A stretch of DNA of 64,000 nt from Prochlorococcus sp. MIT 1223 (GTDB taxonomy: Bacteria; Cyanobacteriota; Cyanobacteriia; PCC-6307; Cyanobiaceae): assembly GCF_034092465.1 (NCBI RefSeq), contig NZ_CP139303.1, positions 1,702,865 to 1,766,864 on the forward strand, written 5' to 3'. Below are positions 7,204-12,723 of this stretch, piece after piece. The stretch's first letter is position 1. Each line of letters opens with the position of its first letter. The notes below the pieces were generated by a model. The model made no database searches. It was not told the origin of the DNA and was given only the letters and a program-made list of their open reading frames with translations. The translations under genes were made by a program, and so were the position numbers.

Positions 7204-7233
7204 AAGACGTAAAATTATTTGAGTTTCTCAGCT

Positions 7234-7413
7234 ATGTACTCTGAATCAAAAAATAATTCACCCAATACTCAAAATGTTAGCAAGACAGAACTTAATTCAT
7301 GGAGAAGAGGTTTTACTTACCAGGCTGAAATATGGAATGGCCGAATGGCTATAGCCGGTTTATTTCTGCTTTCTATCATTTTGTTTGCTGCTAATTACTT
7401 TTTTTCGGGATAA
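7234..7413 (+). CDS. hli: High-light-inducible protein (HLIP)
   Basis: A single-helix relative of plant light-harvesting proteins, thought to bind chlorophyll and carotenoid and to protect photosystems or chlorophyll synthesis under stress. The start ATG at 7234 gives 59 residues. The chlorophyll-binding motif ExxNGRxAM appears as EIWNGRMAI, followed by one membrane helix (AGLFLLSIILFAANYFF). It is 30 bp after tsaD and may be co-transcribed with it. About 200 bp without a gene follow. Confidence 0.93.
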   Translation: MYSESKNNSPNTQNVSKTELNSWRRGFTYQAEIWNGRMAIAGLFLLSIILFAANYFFSG

Positions 7414-8823: not shown

Positions 8824-10257
8824 TTATTTGATACTTTTTCTTAATCGATTTTTATCTTTATCTATTTGAGCTAATAAAGACCAGGTGGTTATTAGGTCAG
8901 GTCCTTGTAAATCTCCTAGGAGAGAAGCTCTTAGACTTTTCATGATAAGCCCCTTTTTGATTTTGAGAGAAGCAGAAATTTCTTGAATAAGACTTTTTGC
9001 TATTTGTATGTCTTTACCGTCCCATGGATTCTTTTCTAATTCTTCTAAAAGCGCTTTCAGAGAGCCTTTTGCTCCTTCACTCTCAAGTTGTTTGATCCCA
9101 TCAGATTTTAATTCAGGTTCATTAAAGAATGGCTCTGATTGTTTTAATGAGTCTTGAAGAGTTATTAGTGATGGTCCTAAGAGTTTACTTAGCTCAATCC
9201 CCCAAGCTCGACTGGGAATTGTCCAACCAGCCTTTGCCCAAATAGTTTCTAACGATTCATATAAGATCTCAGGTTCCCATGAATGAATGACTTGAGAGTT
9301 CAGCCAATTAAGTTTGTCCCAGTCAAATTTTGCCCCTGCTTTATTTACACGTTTAAAACTAAATAATTCAGCAGCCTCTTCAATATTAAATCTTTCATTC
9401 ATTCCTTCGGGTATTGACCACCCCAGTAAAGCCATGTAATTAGTCAAGGCTTCTGCTGTGTATCCCATATCTCTAAATTGATTTATAGAAGTAACCCCAT
9501 CTCTTTTTGAAAGTTTTTTCCCTTCTGAATTAAGAATTAAAGGAGTATGAGCAAATTCAGGAATTCTAAGTCCTAAAGCTTTATAAAGGAGTATTTGTTT
9601 TGCTGTATTTGTTATATGGTCTTCACCTCTAATGACATGTGATATTTGCATTTCAGCATCGTCAATTACAACAACTAAGTTGTAAAGAGGCTCGCCAATC
9701 TCCATTGAGTTCGCTCTCCTGGAAATAACCATGTCTCCTCCCAAGTCTTCTCCTTTCCATTTCATTTGTCCTCTTACAAGGTCATTCCACTCAATTCTTT
9801 CTTCATCATTTATTCGAAAACGAATCACATAAGATCTTCCTTCAGTTATGAAATTTGCTTCATCTTCTTTACTGAGATCTCGATATCTATTGTCATATCG
9901 AGGAGCTTCTCCTCTCCTCTTCTGCGCTTCTCTCATCTCTTCAAGTTCTACTTCGGTTGCAAAACATCTGTAGGCATAACCTTCTTCAAGAAGTTTCTTA
10001 ATGGCTTGTCTATGACAGTTGATACGTTCACTTTGAATTATTAAATCTTCATCCCATTGAAGATTTAGCCATTTTAGTCCCTGAAGAATATTTTCTAGGT
10101 GCTCTTGCTTCGATCTCTCTTTATCAGTGTCTTCTATCCTGAGTAAGAACTTCCCACTATTTTTTTTAGCAAAGAGCCAATTGAATAATGCTGTTCTAGC
10201 TGTTCCTATATGAAGAGTTCCAGTGGGACTAGGGGCAAGTCTTACTCGAACCGTCAC
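8824..10257 (-). CDS. gltX: Glutamyl-tRNA synthetase
   Basis: Charges tRNA-Glu, which here also feeds 5-aminolevulinate, haem and chlorophyll synthesis by the C5 pathway. The start is GTG at 10257 ([13 protein letters not shown]); the open frame reaches 10302 but would then read through the tRNA-Asp gene. The class I signatures are [11 protein letters not shown] (HIGH box) and KLSKRDG (KMSKS box). It has 477 residues, the usual length. Only 18 bp separate it from tRNA-Asp, so the two may share a transcript. Confidence 0.97.
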
Positions 10258-10275
10258 GCTTGATTTTGTGAAGAA

Positions 10276-10349
10276 CGGGACCGACGGGATTCGAACCCGC
10301 AACTTCCGCCGTGACAGGGCGGTGCTCTAACCAGTTGAACTACGGTCCC
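10276..10349 (-). tRNA. tRNA-Asp (GTC)
   Basis: A 74-base cloverleaf read leftward: acceptor GGGACCG, D-arm TTCAACTGGTTAGAGC, anticodon GTC within CCTGTCACGG, T-arm GGGTTCGAATCCC, and discriminator G. The acceptor arms pair fully. CCA is not encoded. Confidence 0.97.
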
Positions 10350-10569
10350 AGATGAACAATGCCCTAAGAGGGCTTTAGTTAATGAGTCTGGGTGGCTTGG
10401 ATTGAAAAAAAAACATCCTAGAATGATTAATCTAATACCAGCGACTCTCTAACTAAGGAATTTGTGTTTTTTCAATAATTTTCAAGTAGCAAATGATTGA
10501 TAAACGATGATCAATGTTTTTTGATTTGGATAAATAGCTCCTTTGAGAACGTAATCATGGAAATGAAAT

Positions 10570-10758
10570 TTAAGGGCGAAATCCTGCAGGTTCTATTAAC
10601 CGAACTTGATTTCCTCTTGCAGTGAATTCCCTACCTTGATCACTTTGAACAACAACTCTACCTCCAGATTTAACTCGAATTACTCTTGCTCGAACCCAGC
10701 CTAGTGCGGCTGATTCAAGGACTTTTACAACATCACCAGGTTGAAGATCTAACTCCAT
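10570..10758 (-). CDS. Hyper-conserved protein PSHCP (62 aa, SH3-like)
   Basis: 62 residues: an acidic N-terminal MELDLQPGDVVKVLE, an SH3/KOW-like small beta barrel pattern (GDVVKV, WVRARVIRVKSGGRVVVQS, REFTARGNQVRLIE) and a Pro-rich end. From memory it matches the protein reported as nearly invariant across Prochlorococcus and marine Synechococcus, for which ribosomal and tRNA interactions have been described; I could not check the identity. Its place between tRNA-Asp and tRNA-Trp, near rplS and gltX, fits a role in translation. Base composition is richer in G+C than the surroundings, in line with strong protein conservation. Confidence 0.88.
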   Translation of the reverse strand: MELDLQPGDVVKVLESAALGWVRARVIRVKSGGRVVVQSDQGREFTARGNQVRLIEPAGFRP

Positions 10759-10794
10759 TCTTTAAACAAAGTAACTGCAGAGAGGGTGATCGAA

Positions 10795-10867
10795 CGCGCC
10801 GTGGAGGACTCGAACCCCCGACATCAGGTTTTGGAGACCTGCGTTCTACCAACTGAACTAACGGCGC
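10795..10867 (-). tRNA. tRNA-Trp (CCA)
   Basis: A 73-base cloverleaf read leftward: acceptor GCGCCGT pairing with ACGGCGC, D-arm AGTTCAGTTGGTAGAAC, anticodon CCA in GGTCTCCAAAACC, T-arm GGGGGTTCGAGTCCTCC, and discriminator G. It lies between rplS and the PSHCP gene on the same strand. Confidence 0.97.
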
Positions 10868-10928
10868 ATTGTGAATACCCTCGGGTCATTATTTCAATAA
10901 TGACATTTGGATGGACGAGGCCGAAACC

Positions 10929-11426
10929 TCAGCGGTCGAAGCGCTGCTTTACTCGAGTGGCTTTACCAACACGATCACGCAGGTAGAAAAGCTTCGCTCT
11001 TCTAACTTTACCTCGGCGTTCGACTTTTATAGAAGCTACTTGTGGGCTATGAACCATAAAAACTCTCTCTACGCCAATTCCTTGGAAAATTCTTCTAACA
11101 GTGATTGTTTGATTTAACCCTCCGTGCCTTTTTGCAATTATCACTCCTTCATAGGGCTGGACACGCTCTTTGTTTCCCTCGCTTATTTTTACCCCGACTT
11201 TAACTGTGTCGCCTACATATATCTCAGGAAGGTTTTGCTTTTCTTGAGATTTTTCGAATTCGCTAATGATCTCTTTTGGGCTGATTCTCTTCGGAGCATT
11301 GCTTTTGGTTCCCTGTGAAATACTCTTAGTAGCTTTAGAAGCTGACACTTTTTCAGTAGAGACCTTGGTTTCAGAGGCCTCAACGGCTTCTGTTTTTGCG
11401 GGAGTAGATTTTGAGTCTTCTGACAT
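10929..11426 (-). CDS. rplS: Ribosomal protein L19 with N-terminal extension
   Basis: Large-subunit protein at the 30S-50S interface. The conserved L19 domain occupies about residues 55-165 ([56 protein letters not shown]). Before it come some 50 residues rich in Ser, Thr, Lys, Ala and Glu that E. coli L19 (about 115 residues) lacks. Translation probably starts at ATG 11426; a GTG one codon earlier (11429) is in frame, with AGGA upstream. It heads the leftward run rplS, tRNA-Trp, PSHCP, tRNA-Asp, gltX. Confidence 0.96.
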
Positions 11427-11886
11427 CACTGATCCTATTTTTTTCCAGATAATTATTGTAACTGCTAATTAATCAGTCTTGCCTAACTTTCTTTGCTTTT
11501 TAGAGAAAAATTTTCTGAAACTTGGCTTACCCTTTAGAGAGGCATTAAAAGAATTTTGTTTTGTATTGAATTAAGCAAAGATGATTCGCATCCGTAGCTT
11601 TTATGATTTCATTCAAATTAATGGCCATCAGCTTATTTAGTTCACTTTTTAACAAGTGTTTTGAATCTATTACTAGTGAGTAATATCTTCCTAAAAAATG
11701 TGATTTCAAATAATGGGATAAATTCTCTAGTTAAAGATGGCTAAGTCAAGCTGCCTGCTTTCTTAATCAGCACCTCTTTCCTTGTTTAACTGATTTTCTT
11801 GATGGCTTTCTGCGAGTGAGTTATAAATTATTTTTTCTTTATTCAAATTGAGCTATGCAAATTAATATTATAAAAATTTGGGAAAT
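11427..11886. other. Gene-free divergent spacer, possible small RNA
   Basis: About 460 bp between rplS and map, long for this compact genome. It has no convincing protein gene; the best open frame is 19 codons at 11581-11640. A hairpin with 7-bp arms (11668-11674 and 11679-11685, loop AGTG) and a small stem followed by TTTT (11643-11662) are visible. It must hold the rplS promoter on the left and the map promoter on the right. A small RNA is possible but not shown. Confidence 0.4.
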
Positions 11887-12723
11887 ATGAATCTTTTTTC
11901 TGACCTACTAGCATCTTCCAATGGAAGCATTAGCAAAACTGGCCCTAGGATTCAGCAGAGAAGAGGGATAGAGCTTAAATCTCTACGCGAGATAAAGATA
12001 ATGAGAGATGCCAGCAAAATAGTAGCTACGGTCCTAAAAGAAATTGAATCAATGGTTTCTCCTGGTATGACAACAGGAGATTTAGATGAATATGCTGAGC
12101 GAACAATTAGAGAAATGGGAGCAACTCCAAGTTTTAAGGGCTACCAGGGATTCCCTTCTAGTATTTGCGCAAGTATTAATAATGAAGTTGTTCATGGAAT
12201 CCCTTCCTCGAAAAGAATTATAAAATCAGGAGATTTACTTAAAGTTGATACTGGCGCTTATTTTGATGGCTATCACGGAGATAGCTGTATAACTATTTGC
12301 GTAGGAGAGGTTTCGGAAATTGCTAAAGAGCTAAGTCGAGTTGCTCAAGAAGCTTTAAATGCTGGTATATCTAAAGTTAAGCCTAAAAACACTTTAATGG
12401 ATATTGCTGGCGCAGTAGAAGACGTTGTAAAGGAGAATGGCTTTAGTGTTGTAGAGGACTACACCGGGCACGGGGTTGGTCGCAATCTTCATGAAGAACC
12501 ATCTGTTTTTAACTTTAGAACTACAGATCTTCCAAATGTAACTTTGCGGCCTGGGATGACTCTTGCAATAGAACCTATTGTTAATAGTGGGAGTAAAGCC
12601 TGTAAAACCTTGAAAGATGGCTGGACAGTTGTAACTCAAGATGGGAGTCTTTCTGCTCAATGGGAACATACGGTCCTTGTTACAAGTAAGGGTTTTGAGA
12701 TACTTACTGAAAGAAACAATTAG
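11887..12723 (+). CDS. map: Methionine aminopeptidase, type I
   Basis: Removes the initiator Met from new proteins. It starts at ATG 11887 and has 278 residues; an in-frame TTG lies three codons upstream. The M24 metal ligands are present: Asp in KVDTGAYF, Asp in GYHGDSC, His in [13 protein letters not shown], Glu in AIEPIV and Glu in QWEHTVLV. The N-terminal ~30 residues before the catalytic domain are polar and not zinc-finger-like. The gene stands alone: the upstream spacer is gene-free and the next gene converges with a 10-bp gap. Confidence 0.96.

Follow-up and report, generated by a model that had tools for sequence, protein, structure and literature searches.

The closest described system is PSHCP itself; in the ocean's most abundant phototrophs, few known proteins are conserved as strictly. 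Whidden 2014 (PMC4215834) already reported its 100% conservation and synteny, the synonymous divergence of its gene, its expression and a partial co-transcription, together with the gene order rpl19-trnW-pshcp-trnD-gltX, a basic pI of 11.3 and a weak similarity to SH3 domains. An RNA-binding Tudor fold has likewise been published (Bauer 2019). As a finding, PSHCP is therefore already known, described and structurally solved, which makes the copy analyzed below ordinary as a discovery; its testable handles are a site that lies empty in other cyanobacteria and a tail on the ribosomal protein bL19.

The pshcp locus and its transcription

We analyzed a window of 64,000 nucleotides from Prochlorococcus sp. 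MIT 1223 (NZ_CP139303.1, positions 1,702,865 to 1,766,864), in which an earlier reading of the sequence alone (hereafter the original prediction) had recognized PSHCP at positions 10570-10758. The coordinates were right: the ORF at 10758..10570 on the minus strand has an ATG start and 62 codons in the ORF listing of the window. A phmmer search of PDB sequences matched its product to 6nnb_A, "Prochlorococcus/Synechococcus Hyper Conserved Protein" (E 2.4e-31). Comparison with this published protein, which the original prediction had proposed, gave 100% identity over residues 1-56, residues 57-62 lying outside that construct. We conclude from this match that the ORF is PSHCP. The features of the locus are:

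10570..10758, minus strand: pshcp, 62-aa hyper-conserved SH3/Tudor-like protein (ORF listing, phmmer, AlphaFold, Foldseek)
10759..10793, minus strand: leader separating tRNA-Trp from pshcp, 35 nt long here and 32-49 nt across 175 loci
10794..10868, minus strand: tRNA-Trp (cca), directly upstream of pshcp (ARAGORN; Rfam tRNA model)
10929..11429, minus strand: rplS (bL19), with an N-terminal extension of ~40 residues (TIGR01024, 4.1e-45)
10351..10569, minus strand: spacer of 219 nt from pshcp to tRNA-Asp, of variable length in relatives (sequence and locus comparison)
10275..10350, minus strand: tRNA-Asp (gtc), downstream of pshcp (ARAGORN; Rfam tRNA model)
8824..10257, minus strand: gltX, glutamate-tRNA ligase (TIGR00464, 6.3e-161)
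11878..12723, plus strand: map (Peptidase_M24), divergent from rplS (profile match)

The minus strand of the window thus reads rplS-trnW-pshcp-trnD-gltX, with map divergent upstream; map is divergent from rplS also in some genomes without pshcp. For both tRNAs, the ends given by the Rfam tRNA model and by ARAGORN agree within one base. The GTG start of gltX at 10257 was our choice, the mechanical ORF extending to 10302, into tRNA-Asp. Elsewhere in the window, a 64-aa ORF at 7219-7413 resembles, by eye, a high-light-inducible protein.

The predicted gene order was recovered well beyond the window. It is complete in 165 of 178 pshcp loci; in 12 of the 13 incomplete ones the available DNA stops at most 700 bp away on the side of the missing gene, and in the thirteenth (L167) the order is restored on a longer stretch, with trnD ~1.4 kb further and then gltX. 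Wherever trnW was found adjacent (175 loci), the trnW-pshcp gap measures 32-49 nt, whereas the pshcp-trnD gap ranges from 114 to 1181 nt (172 loci) and exceeds 400 nt in 22 of them. Two long gaps were opened and each contained a whole ORF, regulator-like by eye in one locus (L022, 3256-4251, minus strand) and reductase-like by eye in the other (L320, 3038-3556, plus strand). A short gap of narrow range on one side, and on the other a variable gap that can hold a gene, indicate that pshcp is tied to the rplS-trnW side.

This spacing, within 32-49 nt in 175 loci, would suit a protein that regulates or helps mature the neighboring tRNA-Trp and tRNA-Asp, or that acts on its own transcript via the upstream tRNA. 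So would the main pshcp promoter, which lies inside trnW in two of three strains (Whidden 2014, PMC4215834). We consider such a role unlikely, given that trnD, at 114-1181 nt and in one more locus at about 1.4 kb, with a whole gene in the two gaps opened, is not tied to pshcp, and that trnW follows rplS in 41 of 46 loci of cyanobacteria without pshcp. Conservation of the leader also argues against it, being only slightly above that of four-fold sites in the high-GC set (0.64 vs 0.54) and below it in the low-GC set (0.61 vs 0.68).

The original prediction had further suggested shared transcription with the tRNAs, and the published data covered here sustain this only in part (Whidden 2014, PMC4215834). 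Co-transcription of pshcp with trnD is cited there, but it does not include gltX, and pshcp RNA carrying full rpl19 amounts to 0-1.6%. The two shortest transcript classes, which start inside or after trnW, dominate, with 52% of pshcp RNA in MED4, 80% in MIT 9313 and 81% in WH 8102. Our promoter scan gave one promoter-like site, which is below the mean of shuffled sequence; the terminator scan gave five terminator-like sites vs 1.4 expected.

Conservation and distribution of PSHCP

PSHCP was matched at E <= 0.001 in 363 of 400 Cyanobiaceae genomes, so the ORF is not a chance one. Thirty-four rows of the family match table were singled out by eye because their E-values were higher than the genome size would give. 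All 34 were below 100% identity or partial; in one of them (L157) the difference is no more than an N in a third codon position, which leaves 33 of the 363 matches as not fully identical by this pick. For the remaining 329 rows, identity is 100% among the matches listed. Two of the 33 are cut and 100% identical over the part present, eleven have their differences confined to the C-terminal residues 61-62, with four of these copies one residue longer, and one begins at residue 3. In a single genus (g8), ten copies combine a start at residue 3 with the substitutions V10L and L19M; eight of them were read (L171-L178), and the remaining two match these in identity and range. The last nine have a single substitution each (E2D, L3S, K12R, V13A twice, R25S, R43S, L54M and I55N).

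Across the 178 loci (163 distinct DNA sequences), a non-random sample made up mostly of best matches and deliberately enriched with 30 of the 34 odd rows, pairwise identity averages 98.7% for the protein (minimum 88.7%) and 78.7% for pshcp DNA (minimum 64.5%). The third base is variable at 61 of 62 codons, at M1 only via copies beginning at residue 3, and K30 has zero substitutions across the 163 distinct genes. The neighbors diverge far more than PSHCP: over distinct loci, and with only alignments beyond a minimum length counted, gltX has a median identity to the window of 61.4% (n=154), map of 69.5% (n=90) and rplS of 85.0% (n=157). The near-identity across strains named in the original prediction is thus borne out. 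We conclude that extreme purifying selection acts on the PSHCP protein, not on the DNA.

Among the 251 better Cyanobiaceae genomes, 247 have PSHCP. Two of the four without a match (G167 and G382) have no rplS match either. In another (G181) the contig stops 19 bases past the rplS match, and a second rplS fragment opens another contig with trnD and gltX. We took these three absences as assembly gaps. Records with PSHCP include freshwater Cyanobium/Synechococcus and Aphanothece cf. minutissima (among the best 80 of 364 relatives, all genome contigs), and the protein has been reported in freshwater Synechococcus, Cyanobium and the Paulinella chromatophore (Whidden 2014, PMC4215834). One record titled as a Bifidobacterium breve MAG (L077, CALPNT020000095.1) carries the full picocyanobacterial rplS-pshcp-gltX region and is mislabeled or contaminated.

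A search of 388 genomes of the class gave nine matches outside the family at E 0.007-0.1, none convincing. Four of these weak matches (G439, G443, G504 and G644) have internal stops and three (G578, G637 and G687) are fragments lying within long reading frames. G458 and G414, from the same genus, were rejected as relatives, their matches being antisense within a conserved hydrolase-like gene. PSHCP was found in none of 50,697 phage records, and no occurrence was confirmed in viral contigs. By these searches, PSHCP appears restricted to Cyanobiaceae among the cyanobacteria covered. The original prediction, in which PSHCP was absent outside Prochlorococcus and marine Synechococcus, drew the clade too narrowly: it extends to freshwater Cyanobium/Synechococcus, Aphanothece cf. 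minutissima and the Paulinella chromatophore.

An empty site between two tRNA genes

We tallied by eye 46 rplS loci outside Cyanobiaceae, one per genome. Following rplS, trnW is present in 41, nusG in 26 and trnD in 4, and neither nusG nor trnD in 11; five of these eleven, read to about 9-10 kb, still have neither. Two further loci were then added to these 46. In family f10, map is divergent from an rplS-trnW-trnD-gltX block without pshcp in all four rplS loci (six genomes searched, two of them without an rplS match), and in family f11 rplS-trnW-trnD occurs without pshcp in both loci. Six genomes from two other cyanobacterial families thus have the arrangement without the gene, four of them with gltX. 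Searching the six trnW-trnD spacers (116-390 bp) with PSHCP by tblastn returned nothing at E <= 10. By eye, all six (L186, L202, L211, L216, L231 and L232) have a TTGACA-type promoter-like sequence before trnD.

Because trnW and trnD adjoin without pshcp in these six genomes, pshcp probably arose within, or was inserted into, a tRNA-tRNA spacer that already existed; on the simplest reading of the gene orders, it probably appeared between tRNA genes that were already neighbors. In an rpoB tree of 29 genomes (30 searched, the fragment from G401 dropped), f11 stands beside Cyanobiaceae, weakly (81/46), and f10 is joined with f8 (98/98, starred). The f8 genome has trnD, gltX and nusG all missing within about 9 kb after trnW. 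The joining of f10 with f8, where rplS-trnW has no nearby trnD, counts against the simplest reading and against one shared origin of the trnW-trnD-gltX block, which may have formed on two occasions; alternatively, a loss of pshcp may have occurred. A single clade of f1, f10 and f11 was not rejected with three long rows dropped (p-AU 0.194).

The original prediction had taken the gene order as support for a role in translation. The neighbors are indeed of translation type, but map and the rplS-trnW-trnD-gltX block are intact without pshcp in all four f10 loci, so these genes can adjoin without PSHCP and the argument is weaker than it seemed. The spacers without pshcp suggest the place at which the gene appeared, and they make its neighbors a weaker argument. 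We found no mention of the empty site in the part of Whidden 2014 (PMC4215834) covered here or in a literature search of limited coverage, which makes the site new as far as seen, a coverage that does not amount to proof of novelty.

The origin of PSHCP may have been the capture of an SH3/KOW-like domain or birth in place, either of which would fit. A more specific proposal is descent from the KOW-type domain of another protein, NusG or the ribosome-collision factor MutS2. The order rplS-trnW followed by nusG in 26 of the 46 non-family loci points that way, as does the location of nusG elsewhere (962946) in the genome of the window. There is also structural likeness to an Spt5 KOW domain (3p8b_B, Z 8.4, 32% identity) and to the B. 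subtilis MutS2 chain (8r55_z, Z 8.2), and weak matches in two genomes (G204 and G030) fall within the KOW-like region of MutS2-like proteins, with a pairwise score reached by 0 of 3000 shuffles. However, each of these MutS2 matches was selected as the top one of an entire genome in a search of 12, and with E-values of 0.07 and 0.12 chance suffices to explain them. The window's own genome is without a MutS2 match, and in our reading the pairing puts the first MutS2 strand on the second PSHCP strand. A KOW profile built from 27 NusG sequences scores PSHCP at 4.4 bits, equaled by 18 of 3000 shuffles, and no KOW family in Pfam matches at E <= 1, SH3_1 being nearer (1.2e-4). We regard descent from a KOW domain as quite improbable.

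In the two genomes with these MutS2 matches (L284 and L286), the KOW-like region of the MutS2-like protein pairs with PSHCP residues 23-57 over 32-35 residues at about 40% identity, out of strand register. Both belong to the weak second matches within Cyanobiaceae (12 genomes searched, seven matches read), of which others fall in an oxidoreductase-like protein in G185 and G272 and in other long proteins in G101 and G131. An origin from L19 was also rejected (profile score 2.0 bits, with 207 of 3000 shuffles as high).

Ribosomal tails, a proposed role in translation and known barrels

Counted from the first ATG, the first conserved GD of bL19 is preceded by a median of 65 residues in 168 Cyanobiaceae loci and of 24 in 45 loci outside the family; two of the latter, with long bL19 reads (L202 and L215), look like start over-calls. 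In the extra part, which has a median length of 40 residues (154 distinct sequences), A, E, T, K and S are abundant, and the net charge is below zero in 131 of the 154. This low-complexity, mildly acidic tail is seen in the window (10929-11429) and nearly throughout the Cyanobiaceae loci read (L001-L178); the other cyanobacteria examined lack it. The control consisted of 24 genes of the S10-spc region, measured against G409 in 9 Cyanobiaceae and 10 other genomes. The single comparable N-terminal gain was in what we take to be uS5 (+26 vs -8), and the single C-terminal gain in what is presumably uL16, 15 residues longer in Cyanobiaceae; both names were assigned from sequence and gene order. The N-terminal tail of uS5 is about 34 residues longer in the nine Cyanobiaceae (L300-L308) than in the ten others (L309-L319).

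The bL19 tail was rejected as a perfect partner of PSHCP: one genome (G049) has pshcp and apparently no tail, so the tail may postdate PSHCP. Tail and protein form one evolutionary correlation, not evidence of contact; their near-coincidence provides a concrete docking hypothesis for PSHCP. In a broader scenario, which we consider speculative and rather unlikely, PSHCP would be the youngest clade-wide addition to the bacterial ribosome, born or captured in a pre-existing tRNA-Trp/tRNA-Asp spacer on the Cyanobiaceae stem and frozen early. Ribosomal remodeling would have followed, with a tail on bL19, whose gene belongs to the same run as pshcp, and one on uS5; PSHCP may share a docking site with these parts.

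PSHCP reportedly binds tRNA through a basic patch around Lys30. On balance, we favor the reading that PSHCP, a small basic SH3-like (Tudor-type) barrel, is a stand-alone RNA-binding translation accessory of Cyanobiaceae that holds structured RNA. Its basic face would hold tRNA and/or 23S rRNA near uL2, the ribosome or tRNA would be its working site, and contact with almost invariant RNA over most of its surface would explain the freeze of its sequence. In the published data covered here, PSHCP is present at 8-26 fmol per ug protein, uL2 occurs in PSHCP pull-downs of three strains, and pshcp transcripts shift in parallel with translation genes under nutrient limitation (Whidden 2014, PMC4215834).

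The translation-type neighbors that stand together without pshcp elsewhere count against a translation accessory, and so do PsaD and a Ycf48-like protein, which the pull-downs also yield and which leave room for a photosystem link. PSHCP would then connect translation to photosystem assembly, docking on the ribosome and passing nascent thylakoid proteins to factors like Ycf48. Such a link was proposed by the authors of the pull-downs, who recovered both proteins in all three strains, but from few peptides (1-4 unique for PsaD, 1 for Ycf48; Whidden 2014, PMC4215834). Moreover, other cyanobacteria assemble photosystems, and the class search gave no convincing relative of PSHCP outside Cyanobiaceae. 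We give a photosystem link a small but real chance and retain the translation accessory as the preferred reading.

AlphaFold, run without alignment or templates, predicted a five-strand barrel (pLDDT 85.7, in a set of five models spanning 50 to 86). The first-ranked Foldseek match was 6nnb, "Tudor domain of PSHCP" (E 1.5e-6), followed by Tudor domains, myosin barrels and Spt5 KOW; in VIA-align, several Tudor domains reached Z about 9, above 6nnb itself (Z 8.1). The model thus agrees with the SH3-like fold named in the original prediction and presents PSHCP as a five-strand SH3-like barrel of Tudor type.

The Tudor domains of TDRD3, PHF1, PHF20 and SMN share this five-strand SH3-like barrel with PSHCP (Z 8.2-9.5). 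The aromatic cage of methyl-reading Tudor domains usually has about four aromatics, whereas W21 and F45 are the only aromatics in the folded part of PSHCP, too few for the usual cage, F60 being in the tail; no TUDOR family in Pfam matches PSHCP at E <= 1. The SH3_1 profile (PF00018) matches residues 2-28 (E 1.2e-4), but covers half of the domain only and scores 22.0 bits, with a cut-off of 22.9. The KOW domains of NusG/Spt5 and MutS2 share the barrel fold (Spt5 chains Z 8.1-8.4, MutS2 chain Z 8.2), yet give no convincing in-register sequence signal. Within PSHCP, the window carries the 62-aa form ending in FRP, the 64-aa form ending in FRPQK being present in 52 of 178 loci. Compared with the published protein (6nnb; PMC4215834), the window copy differs in nothing: sequence, length, gene order, clade and fold are the same.
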